A stretch of DNA of 64,000 nt from Apostichopus japonicus (Eukaryota > Echinodermata > Holothuroidea > Aspidochirotida > Stichopodidae), in the NCBI RefSeq assembly GCF_037975245.1, contig NC_092580.1:14669001-14733000 (forward strand), in the 5' to 3' direction. The position numbers and the translations under genes were made by a program. This document shows, piece by piece, positions 2,086-8,000 of this stretch. Positions within the stretch are counted from its first letter, which is position 1, and the number at the start of each line of letters is the position of its first letter. Below the pieces are notes generated by a model. That model had not been told where the DNA came from. It searched no databases and saw only the letters and a list, made by a program, of their open reading frames with translations.

Positions 2086-5000
2086 GGTGGATTATTGGAC
2101 GCGAACGTCAAATCTTTATGGAGTTGACATGTCCTGTCTGGTCCCTCATTCCAAGAAGTCTCTTTCCAGTGAGTATTGCAATTATAAAATTACAAAATCA
2201 AATCATAAGTTGCATGGCCATGAACCATCAATTGTTTTTGAAATTGAATTTAAATCAAGCAAGTTTAGGTACCTACACAAAAGTAGAATGCATATTCTAT
2301 ACCATTTCAACCAATTCTTACGTCACTAAGTGTGAACTATCTTCATTGGGTTTACATGGTTAAACAGGGTTTTCGTTAGTAGCCGGGACCCGGGTCAAAT
2401 GACCTGCTTACTGCACGTACATGACCCGGCTACTTTGCGACGCTCAGTAAAAAAATAAAAAAATAAAACATTAAATTAAATTAAAAAAAAAAAAATGACG
2501 AAAAAAATCGAGAGGAATAAATACCCACAACCAGGTCAGGTGTGATTGAAACTGTCACAGCAGGCCGAGGGGTGGGTGAGAGTAGAGGTAGGCGAAGGGC
2601 TTCTCTTGACATACAAATTGTTGCTCAACAGAGATAAAAGCTGAATAAAAAACAGAAGGTTCTATCACAGACCTAGTTGGGTATTTTTCGGCAGTAAAAT
2701 CCTACTCACTTTGTAGGTACCGTAGACCTATTATCATTTTGTTATGATCGCACTTCATTTAATGCAGCAAGTGCGTCACACCCTTGCTAAGTTCGGTTCA
2801 GTGGCATAGCTACCTCCCTAGGCTCCATGACCCGAGTGTTAATAAAAAAATTCAGGAGAAAAAAAGAAAAATAGGACAGAAGAAAGGGGTGATTGGGAGG
2901 GGGCAATATCATTGACCAAACAACTGTATATTGCACCATTTTGCATCTAGAGACTTTTTAAATTGCAATTTTCCAGCAAAGGGGAGGGGGGACCCCTCCC
3001 CTTAGACCCCTCCCCCATGTCCGCGTACAGACAGTCCCGCCTACTTTTCAACTTGACCCACCTACTTCATTTCTTAACAAAAACCCTGTTAAAGCAATTT
3101 AGCTGTTATGATTCAACCTGCACAGTTAATGGATAGTATTGATCTATTTGGGAATAAAAGTCAATTTGTTTTACAGGAAAGTTGTATTGTATGTTGACGC
3201 TATGCTTTTACAATATCCATGAAGTTGTGTGACAACTGAAAAGAAAGCAAACCACTATGTCAAAGGTGCTATTCCTGGATTTCTCAAGTGCTTTCAACAC
3301 GGTCCTACTCGAATCTGTTAAAGTGGCCAAGACACGAAAATTTCAAAGTCGTATATATTTGGGATCCATCAAAGAATGTTCTCTAGAACATGTATCAACC
3401 AATCTGCCAGTTTAAAACTTTTTTTTTCAAGTCGAAAATTGAGAATGAATTTACCCTCTTCGGCGTTTGAAACTTTGTTTGCTCGAAAATTTTCCGATTC
3501 GTATGACGTCATGTTATGAACACGTTTGTTGTCGCTGTTTACGATCCTCCAAACATACCATTCACGTACACATTAGACAAGTACACATACCACTAGTAGT
3601 TACTAAACAAAACACCGATCACAAGTGCGATATCAAATCAAAATTTCCTGTGAAATGGCGGATCCAGAACCAATTGCGGCAACCGAAGTTCAAAGTGATA
3701 GTGGTTCTTCATAAAGTCAGTGAAGTTGGGCTATAATCAGAGTGCCCTTTCTCATATTCGAAGCAGAGAGTGAAGGCGATGATCATGCCTATATTGAACC
3801 GAACGTTGAGGGTGGACCTGAGGTGTTAGAACCGTATCAGTTCGAGCCTGTTAAACGAGCCGAAATTGAAGCTCCACAACATATCGAAGAAGAAACCCGT
3901 TCAAAACGATTGCAAGGAACATACAACGTGGTAAGAATTTATTAACGAAGCATTTAAAAACAAAATCCAGTCCATTTTGTGCATGTGTTGTTGGAATTCG
4001 CGGAACCCCCTAAACCGTATTGTGCGTTGTGTTACGGTAACTTACAACCCATATGTACAGTGTGTTGGCTATTACATATACTTTATAGTAGTAGTAGGGT
4101 TGGTTGCATACTGAAAGTTTGGCTCGGGGATGTAAGTTGCATTATGCAGCCATGCTAGGTAGGCATATGTGAAATTTCATACTCATTATTACTAGGCTAG
4201 TACTTTGGCCTGGAGTTTTGGAAATCAATTTTCTGAAACAAAAGAATGTTTCATGATACATGGAAGGTGTAAATTCACAACAAATGTAACCATAACTGTA
4301 CATTGTATGCCTGCTTGTTATTGTGGACATCATGGGCCAACATTAATACATTTTGAACTTTCATAATTTTTTTCCCCAGGCAGTACAGATACATAGCCTA
4401 AGGTCAACAGGTTCAATGGTACTGGGGATTCCTAGCAAGACATGTCAGGGTTGTGCTACCATTATGTGCAGTCCAAAGGATCAGAAGTTTCCAGCCAATG
4501 GTCATTACACTGGATTCAAGTTGCCAGGAGAAAACTCATTGCATAGGAAGCCTTGGTTGAGAAATTCCTCCAGAAACACCTTTTCTAAACTACGATTGTG
4601 TTGGATTATCAATCCGTCAGGGTTTCATCAGTGTTGATATATTGAAATTCAAGACTTTTAATTTAGGATGAAATGGTTATTTTCCAGACCCAACATCAAC
4701 AATGAAAGAAAAGGCATGTTTTGAAGCATTTGGACACAAGTATTGGCGTGACCGTGATGTCATATAATATATGCATAAGGGAACGGGCATTGACCTTTTT
4801 AGGAGCATTTACCTCCCAGACATGTTTGCTTCGTACCTTTAATCTGGAAGCCAAAATATCCATATCACCAATGATATTTGACAGAAAAGTCATATAAAAG
4901 ACCAATGGAGGCAGCAGAGCTCTTGAATGTTTAGACTTTGTTTCTTCAGCAGCAGTTGGTTTGTTTTACAATCTTTCTTCAGAAACTCAGCACTACACCC

Positions 5001-8000
5001 TCTTAATGGTCTTCGATTGTTTTAATGCGTGTGATGCTGTGTTTCACGTTGCCCGTCAGTGTTGTACGTGTCGTCGTGCGTGGGTAACATTTTTGCATGT
5101 GAGTTGCGTCGTGCAGTGTTTCTTGGTTGATAGCGATGGACATGCAACTGCTTTGTAGGCTTAAAGCAAAAATATTCATGTAAGTTGTCTTTCTTTAAAC
5201 CTCCTTTGATGTCACAAATTACATTAGTGTAATTTAAGAATGATAATGTCTATGGAAAGTACAGTTTTACTTTTATGTCATATAATACAATGATTGTTGT
5301 TAATGTTAGTTTAGTCACAGGCTTGTTCAGATTGTCCAGAATGACTGTCTAGAACTGATATTGAATAAACTTTGTTCAATGATTTAAGACTTGAACTACG
5401 TTGTGCGAATTTTTGGCTCTGTGACTTTAAAATAAATCGCTTTGAGATTTAAACACCCTTTGGAATAAAATCTTTTTACCTACCTATTTTGACCCATCCT
5501 CATTACCCTCACTCCTTCCCTAACATAAAAAATGGTTTTCCTGGAATAGGAATACAAATTTATTGCTATAACTAACTTATACAGCATATTCCAGAAATAA
5601 ATTGGGGCACTGAATTTTTCACAAGAAGATGTAACGCATCGCTTCTGAAGCTAACCTCATAGCTTATTAGTATACAATAGAGCAATGAAGGGGTGTTAAT
5701 TTAGATGATACAGTAAAATCTCTTCGTCTATTGCGACTTCAGTGTAGTAACGCTAATACTAGTACTACTAGTGCTCGGCTGCGCTACCTTCAAAGGATCG
5801 CCACTTGCCCCATTGGAGGTTTCCTGTTCCCCGATCTGGTCTTCAGAGTAGTTTTAGACAGAGTAGTTTCGTGACAGAAGAACGACTCTTTTATGTCGAA
5901 CCGTTAAAGTCAATTTGTTTTATTTCATAAAAAAGGAGGGATCGTAGTATGCTTCCGTGAAGTTTTCGCTTCATACGGAGCTGCATACTGGCTAGGCCCA
6001 GTGAAATCGGCGCTGGTGTTGTGCACTAACTTGGTCATAATCGCCGTGTTTTTTTCGTCCTTCGGCCATCGATGAAGGCTAATTGCATGTGTTATGTTTT
6101 GTGCAGCACCCAACAACACAACGGACCGGCATTTCTCTCGGATATTTAACAACATGTTGTAAAACAAACTTGAAAATTCTAACGATATAGCGTAATACAC
6201 TGGTTGTCCTCTCAGTGTAAATGTGCGTGTATGTGTGACAGTATGATTGTTGCGCATCCGGTACGTGCCTGGGCTTGGCACTTGTGTTCCTAACATGACG
6301 TCATCATTGTCTTGTTTTGAAATCGCATTTTCAGATATCTATTTTCGGATGCGAATATTAAAACGTTAATTTCTAATTAGTCCTTGAGGTTTTCAAGGTG
6401 ATGAGGATAGTTTTGAACAAAGATTTTCTCATAGATTCAGGGGAAGTTACTCTTGATAAGTTGGATTTTTCGTGTCATGGCCTCTTTAATTAAAGATTTA
6501 TACTGGATTTAATACTGAGTCATGGCCATGACATTGTCTAGCTCATTTCTTAACGGAATGGTCACGACAAGTTAAATTGGAGAAAGTTCGGGGGGGGGGG
6601 AGGGCTGGTGGGGGTCCATTGTCTGATCTATTGTTTACGTTACACACGGACGGAATTAAATCAAAAGCTTATCTTTCAGTCGGTAAATATGCTGATGACA
6701 CTGCATTATCATGCAAAATATCCAAGAGTTTATTTGTCAATGATCATTTGAATTATCAACAATCTGTTACTGATATAGTTTCAACATGCGCTCGAAAGAA
6801 CTTATTACTTAATCCCCCCCCCCAAAATCGAAGGAAATGTGTTTTGCCAACACTGACATATAGCACGACAGCCTAAAGTTGACATCTAAATCATAAAGCG
6901 TTAAAATACATGGATCAGAGGATGAGAGAACATCGAAAAATGACTACTCATGGGTATGCATTGAAGACAACCTTACTGAGAATCAATTGTCATATATCGA
7001 AGATATTAAGCAAAGTGTATTATACTGTTTCTAGTTTAGGTGCCAAAGGAAAATGTTTTCAACTTTCTCATTCTACCTCATATTATCTATGCTGTACCTG
7101 TCTGGTACCACTGCATATCATCGAGAGATGAGAATAGGGTGATAAAGTTTCTTAAAGGCATTGCCGCGCTCTGAAAAAGTTAACTTTCCGTTGCTTGCAA
7201 GTGAAGTTTTTTTCGTGTCGCTACAAAATGCAGACAGTAATGAAATGTGATACCTTGTTATCTTATATCTAGACCAGAGATGTCCATTGCTGCTATGTAC
7301 ACTGTGTTGTGGGTATTGACCGTAGCTGTATGTATTGACTGTACACTAGTGTCTAATTACCGACAGTAGCAAGCCGTGTGTGTATTTTCTGGGATCAATG
7401 GTGGTGTCTAACACTTCTGTTACACCTCATTCGAAACTAGGTCAGATTACCGCCATGAGACGTTTCTTTGTGCGTGAGTCAGTTTATGTCGCAGATATTG
7501 AATACAGACTACCAGCCATTGAGAGAAATTGCAATTGCAGCTGGTAGGAGTGAATTTGTCAGAATGATGAACAATATTAGGAATGACAAAAACCACCCAA
7601 TGCATGTCCCACTTATGGGCCTTTTGATTAAATCCACCAGAAATTTGAACATCTTTCCAAAATTGATTTACACTGGAGTTTATTAAACGAAATGTGAAAC
7701 TCAAAAGGAATAAAAGTGTGTAACTTTGGATTCATTGTCAAACCATTTTATAGACATATAAATTAAATGCACTGCATATTAAATCATGAACATTTGCCTT
7801 AACTCTACCAATTTAAGTAACAATATTTAACCAACGTTTAACTGAAGTTTTTTTAGTAAATAGTTGGATTCATGGAAATCAGACTATTTTGTACACAGAA
7901 AAATAAGATGTTTTATATTAACCCAGACAGCGGTATTTTAAAATCATGAATATTTGCCTTTATTCTACCAATTACAATAACAATATTTAACCAAACAACA

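Follow-up and report, generated by a model that had tools for sequence, protein, structure and literature searches.

The 64,000-nucleotide stretch of the Apostichopus japonicus genome analyzed here (positions 14669001-14733000 of contig NC_092580.1, our C20; hereafter the window) contains a TTAA-flanked transposable element at 3322-6485. This element is non-autonomous and very probably (about 93%) derives by internal deletion from a Kol0-type Kolobok transposon, and its P2X7-like piece would be a remnant of the transposon gene KolX. Kol0 Kolobok elements are described as encoding a transposase and KolX, a protein that resembles the ballast domain of P2X7 (PMC9587614).

In the ancestor, two genes would have pointed inward from opposite ends: a transposase gene of the THAP-plus-DDE type and KolX, with the P2X7 ballast fold. 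In a complete element of this type, the THAP transposase would bind the ends and join them to TTAA, as can be gathered from PMC9587614 and PMC6004289. Deletion would have cost the element its transposase core and the middle, zinc-binding part of KolX, leaving the ends and parts of both genes; both genes would then have died, and a transposase acting in trans would have spread the dead form to many TTAA sites. We infer the mobilization in trans, the origin of the loss by deletion from a complete parent, and the lack of a protein function for the P2X7-like piece in the window copy.

Ends, insertion site and genomic copies

The terminal inverted repeats lie at 3322-3340 (+, AG terminus) and 6467-6485 (-, CT-3' terminus), and a TTAA is found directly outside either end (3318-3321 and 6486-6489). 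The left repeat was supported by inverted-repeat detection and a genome-wide pattern count, the right one by inverted-repeat detection, and both TTAA motifs by the sequence itself and by comparison with empty sites. The inverted arms extend over 29 nucleotides and are 86% complementary. Including TTAA, 21 of the 23 terminal nucleotides pair between the arms, which leaves 17 of 19 within the body; shuffled sequences (n = 2000) reached at most 13. An earlier note, made from the letters of this DNA alone, had placed the element exactly here. Its ends proved correct, and its 19-bp inverted repeats were recovered with 17 of the 19 positions matching.

The genome searched is 671,581,487 bases long and consists of 35 contigs. 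Searching it at the DNA level with the element as query gave 84 matching pieces (40 of 515 candidates scored); apart from the window's own sequence, their identity to the window is 89-96%. Twenty further places were fetched, 19 of which could be cut at both ends (no right end was found in L022), giving 20 full-length copies with that of the window. TTAA precedes 19 and follows all 20 of these, and between any two copies the identity of the 60-nucleotide flanks does not exceed 42% on the left and 43% on the right. Because the full-length copies are bounded by TTAA and their flanks are unrelated, the ends of the window element are genuine transposon ends.

The family is abundant. The end pattern TTAAAGWGGCCATGACACGAAAA, with up to one mismatch, occurs at 473 places in the genome (233 + 240), and the reversed control at none (0 + 0). 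Among the first 100 of these places there are 33 pairs of neighboring ends less than 12 kb apart, of which 28 span 3114-3221 bp, one 1447 bp and four 3721-4818 bp; 34 ends fall outside such pairs. A search with the right end alone gave 40 places, 98-100% identical (40 of 331 candidates scored), which we take to be probable family copies. Members of the main subfamily are about 98-99.7% identical among themselves, with the window copy and L013 at 95-97%. Compared with the main subfamily, the window copy has lost about 60 bp at 5126-5128, where the alignment breaks in most rows (query 1810/1811).

The site of insertion can be reconstructed. Its left half (3181-3321, +) is a piece of repeated retrotransposon-like sequence, other copies of which span the site, and its right half (6490-6873, +) is a reverse-transcriptase-like fragment with a YADD motif (PF00078, E = 0.0077, 16.4 bits, below the cut-off), for which the repeat match was tested over 6490-6593. 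When the flanks are joined, other genome copies cross the insertion point uninterrupted, the best with 85% identity over positions 12-238 of 245. The point is contiguous in three of the four retrotransposon-like relatives fetched (L050, L051 and L053), the fourth (L052) having its own gap there. The host halves in the window overlap by four bases, TTAA. The window copy thus moved in by TTAA insertion, interrupting a repeated reverse-transcriptase-like sequence. Among the 40 matches listed for the joined site, 38 are other places and two are the window's own halves.

Remnants of two convergent genes

Two coding remnants face each other within these ends, THAP (-) near the right and the P2X7 tail (+) near the left, an arrangement that the earlier note had described and that our analysis bears out. 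The THAP remnant (5743-6129, -), the N-terminal exon of the transposase, was located by a tblastn search that used as query the open THAP frame from a related locus, L047 (window 6129-5743, 41% identity, E = 4e-17 in a 4-sequence database). The L047 frame itself matches PF05485 (51.9 bits). In the window copy the frame is broken, with five stops within the aligned stretch. A THAP match is present in all 20 copies (E <= 0.01); of these 3.2-kb copies, the window copy and 15 more contain stops in the aligned stretch, and the remaining four align over its first part only.

The remnant of the KolX C-terminal exon (P2X7 ballast, PF20478) lies at 4378-4497 (+), its frame lost in the window copy. It was found by tblastn against KolX last exons (E = 5e-5 in a 4-sequence and 0.001 in a 10-sequence database). 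A stretch of 57 amino acids from the window gives E = 0.012 against PF20478, below the cut-off, and the domain is above the cut-off in the relatives L013 (2e-7) and L039 (2e-10). The last exon is matched in all 20 copies inside the same ends (E <= 0.01). Nearer the left end, a putative KolX start (3655-3714, +) consists of an ATG and the first codons, closed by an in-frame stop. In every copy a stop falls within 30 codons of the ATG; 19 of the 20 share the position of the stop, and the window copy stops slightly earlier. This shared early stop suggests that KolX was already dead when the copies spread.

A putative N-terminal coding remnant of KolX follows in another frame (3763-3930, +), recognized by motif, place and order, and the GTAAG after it is a possible splice donor. 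It contains LEPYQFEP, which resembles LEGYQFEP and LEAYLFEP near the KolX start of two loci, L054 and L055, respectively. KolX begins with MEAFGLEAYLFEP in L055 and with MEHFGLEGYQFEP in L054, and because of this similar beginning we read LEPYQFEP in the window as the start of KolX. No zinc-binding KolX exon is detectable in the window element.

Since THAP and P2RX7_C both went undetected at E <= 1 in a six-frame Pfam scan of the whole window element (stops as X), THAP and KolX of the window copy are identified through the sister copies and BLAST. The same scan, insensitive enough to miss both decayed domains, showed no P2X channel family at E <= 1. The longest stop-to-stop frame in each of the 20 copies has 108-137 amino acids. 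Four Kolobok transposases (T33, T37, tp54 and tp55) matched none of the 20 copies at E <= 0.01. As no transposase core is detectable in any of them, we class the family among the non-autonomous derivatives and not among the autonomous members. With its ends kept and its enzyme lost, its movement must have relied on an enzyme from another source. Rfam (gathering thresholds) had no match in 3000-6900, and ARAGORN (bacterial code) found no tRNA in the whole window.

A sister form of about 2.1 kb has the same ends (L047 111-2181 and L049 290-2394, 89% identical to each other). Its THAP frame is open, with an ATG and 175 amino acids through the THAP zinc ligands in L049, and 195 amino acids and no ATG at that place in L047. 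Neither locus shows a KolX or a transposase match, and together with a third open THAP relative, L048, which has one recognizable end only, they gave none better than E = 0.04. The earlier note had named full-length relatives without the P2X7-like gene as a finding that would speak against its idea, and same-ended relatives in which no KolX piece was detected do exist. Because L055, which is complete in layout, has KolX, we read these short forms as further deletion products. It is conceivable, though very doubtful, that the remnants of the end exons are retained because they are useful, and that the THAP exon of the 2.1-kb form yields a stand-alone DNA-binding protein that would compete with the transposase at the ends and regulate the family. 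P elements have such short repressor proteins. The missing ATG in L047 and the stops in most 3.2-kb THAP stretches weigh against it.

KolX and Kolobok transposases elsewhere in the genome

A genome search with PF20478 gave 150 listed matches of 470 candidates, and the transposase of L037 as query gave 91 matches, with about 35% to 95% identity. Among the 33 best-scoring P2X7-tail places, 27 lie no more than 10 kb from a Kolobok transposase, each of them convergent with it. Extending the count to the first 67 of the 150 listed places gave 33 with a transposase within 10 kb, 32 of them convergent; a crude shifted control gave a mean of 0.1 and a maximum of 2. Conversely, 33 of 55 transposase clusters have a listed P2X7-tail match within 10 kb. 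Two of the 22 clusters without a listed partner were read, L054 and L055, chosen for an upstream THAP exon, which 6 of 53 transposase places had (42 THAP rows compared). Because both hold convergent KolX exons, the linkage count is a lower bound.

L055 (contig C16) is a 7.7-kb TTAA element with TTAA + AGGAGAAATAAAC ends at locus positions 381 and 8063. It contains THAP (PF05485, 2.5e-12), a transposase frame of 646 amino acids (PF20700, 8.9e-7) and convergent KolX exons, the first of which matches PF20478 at 1.7e-7. L054 also has THAP, transposase and convergent KolX exons, and the transposases of the loci with this layout match PF20700. The window family resembles L055 in its THAP exon reading inward from one end, its KolX reading inward from the other, and its TTAA and AG ends. 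Unlike the window family, L055 is 7.7 kb long and has open frames, a transposase and a different terminal repeat; its KolX last exon is 45% identical to that of the window copy.

Two pairs of KolX and transposase loci are nearly identical over almost all of the sequence fetched: L033 and L034 (C5 and C9; 99.8% over 8.9 kb) and L045 and L046 (C9 and C21; 98.8% over 9.4 kb). They are either very long elements or segmental duplications. In L045, a cysteine-rich open frame (CPCKGLGAYCNSFCTCGTKRKACQN, 172-408) lies upstream of KolX on the same strand; it may represent an additional exon of KolX that brings in another metal-binding motif.

The source of the mobilizing enzyme was sought through the ends. 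Among the candidates for an autonomous element were the longest four end pairs (L040-L043, 3.7-4.8 kb), which were rejected because they are family copies with inserts. The terminal repeats of the family were not found in the fetched stretches of L033, L034, L035, L037 and L038, and in L045 and L046 there was only an 11-of-14 match, taken as chance; in all of these the elements may exceed the stretches fetched.

Origin of the P2X7-like piece

The assignment to Kolobok, proposed by the earlier note from TTAA and THAP, is upheld by three features. The window family has the 4-bp TTAA target-site duplication of the superfamily, the AG...CT termini of the window element fit the 5'-RR/YY-3' rule for Kolobok (PMC9587614), and THAP is present, although of the DDD/E transposase with THAP that marks the superfamily only the THAP remnant is found. 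Xenopus Kolobok likewise has AG ends and TTAA (PMC6004289). KolobokP was rejected: its ends carry long direct repeats (about 450 or 660 bp), and the longest direct repeat within 2500-7300 of the window is 26 nucleotides. With the Kol0 lineage (type Kolobok-1_XT; PMC9587614) the family shares the TTAA duplication, RR/YY termini, inverted repeats and remnants of THAP and KolX. Unlike Kol0 elements, it has no transposase core and no detectable zinc part of KolX, its KolX gene being present as a remnant only, and both genes are broken in the window copy. The Xenopus T2-MITEs, presumed non-autonomous Kolobok elements (PMC6004289), also have Kolobok-type TTAA ends; unlike them, the window family is 3.2 kb long and retains recognizable pieces of both genes.

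Several observations weigh against a Kol0 origin. Six of the best 33 P2X7-tail places and the 22 transposase clusters mentioned above have no listed partner within 10 kb. THAP, transposase and KolX have been shown together only at L054 and L055, and no THAP was found upstream of the transposase at the KolX-bearing L033 and L045 within the 3.5-4.3 kb searched. The THAP of L055 gave no direct match to any of the 20 window-family THAP sequences at E <= 0.01, and the two are connected via PF05485 and L047. The putative N-terminal KolX exon is assigned by motif without a significant score (the 8-residue match has E = 0.61, and Pfam gave no match for 3763-3930), and the window copy alone has no Pfam match above the cut-off. 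No autonomous element with the terminal repeats of the window family was found among the 100 of 473 end places listed, and none of 17 transposase places checked on C2-C9 is closer than 80 kb to any perfect end in that list.

The earlier note regarded the P2X7-like tail as unexpected cargo, and a Kolobok that took up a P2X7-tail gene of its host and then multiplied it would indeed place both genes within one mobile unit, as they are in all 20 full-length copies, and would leave many P2X7-tail matches in the genome, as listed above. The presence of both remnants in many copies, which that note had asked for in support of carriage, was thus found. However, KolX is already described as the second protein of Kol0 elements in diverse animals (PMC9587614), 27 of the best 33 P2X7-tail places are convergent with a Kolobok transposase, and one recent capture would not give linked transposases whose identity to the query spans about 35-95%, so that capture appears very improbable. 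A separate insertion of the P2X7-like piece is likewise unsupported, with the last exon inside the same ends in every copy and the early stop common to 19 of 20. The suggestion that transposons could spread channel-less P2X7-tail genes is essentially right, since a transposase adjoins most of the best-scoring ones; the direction of capture is published as the reverse.

A piggyBac-type element carrying a KolX-like gene would also target TTAA, but we consider it no more probable than capture, as the AG...CT termini fit Kolobok, which PMC9587614 separates on this point from piggyBac with its termini other than RR/YY, the THAP exon lies at the same end as in L054 and L055, and loci of the same layout have PF20700 transposases. 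That two unrelated gene fragments came to lie by chance between fortuitous TTAA sites is hardly credible given 473 end matches, 20 same-ended copies at different places and empty sites, and no point in its support was found.

When a TTAA element holds a P2X7-like tail next to a THAP exon, the tail is therefore best explained by the transposon's own gene and not by a captured part of a receptor. The piece shares a homologous C-terminal domain (PF20478) with the tail of the vertebrate P2X7 receptor (ballast or ZCD domain; PMC7016195); unlike the receptor, the window element has no channel domain that we could find, and its ballast piece belongs to a transposon gene. In PMC7016195, the linkage of two markers with ballast-domain genes, seen across the range between sponges and echinoderms, is reported to be ancestral synteny. 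Should these ballast-domain genes be Kolobok genes, one of the markers might be the transposase. According to PMC9587614, the only paper that our literature search on Kolobok with sea cucumber or KolX returned, vertebrate P2X7 took its tail from KolX. Our results agree with this published idea of a Kolobok origin and add a linkage count for one animal genome, in which 27 of the best 33 P2X7-tail places face an adjoining Kolobok transposase. Because of this linkage, annotations as P2X7-like in such genomes need to be checked for a transposon origin.

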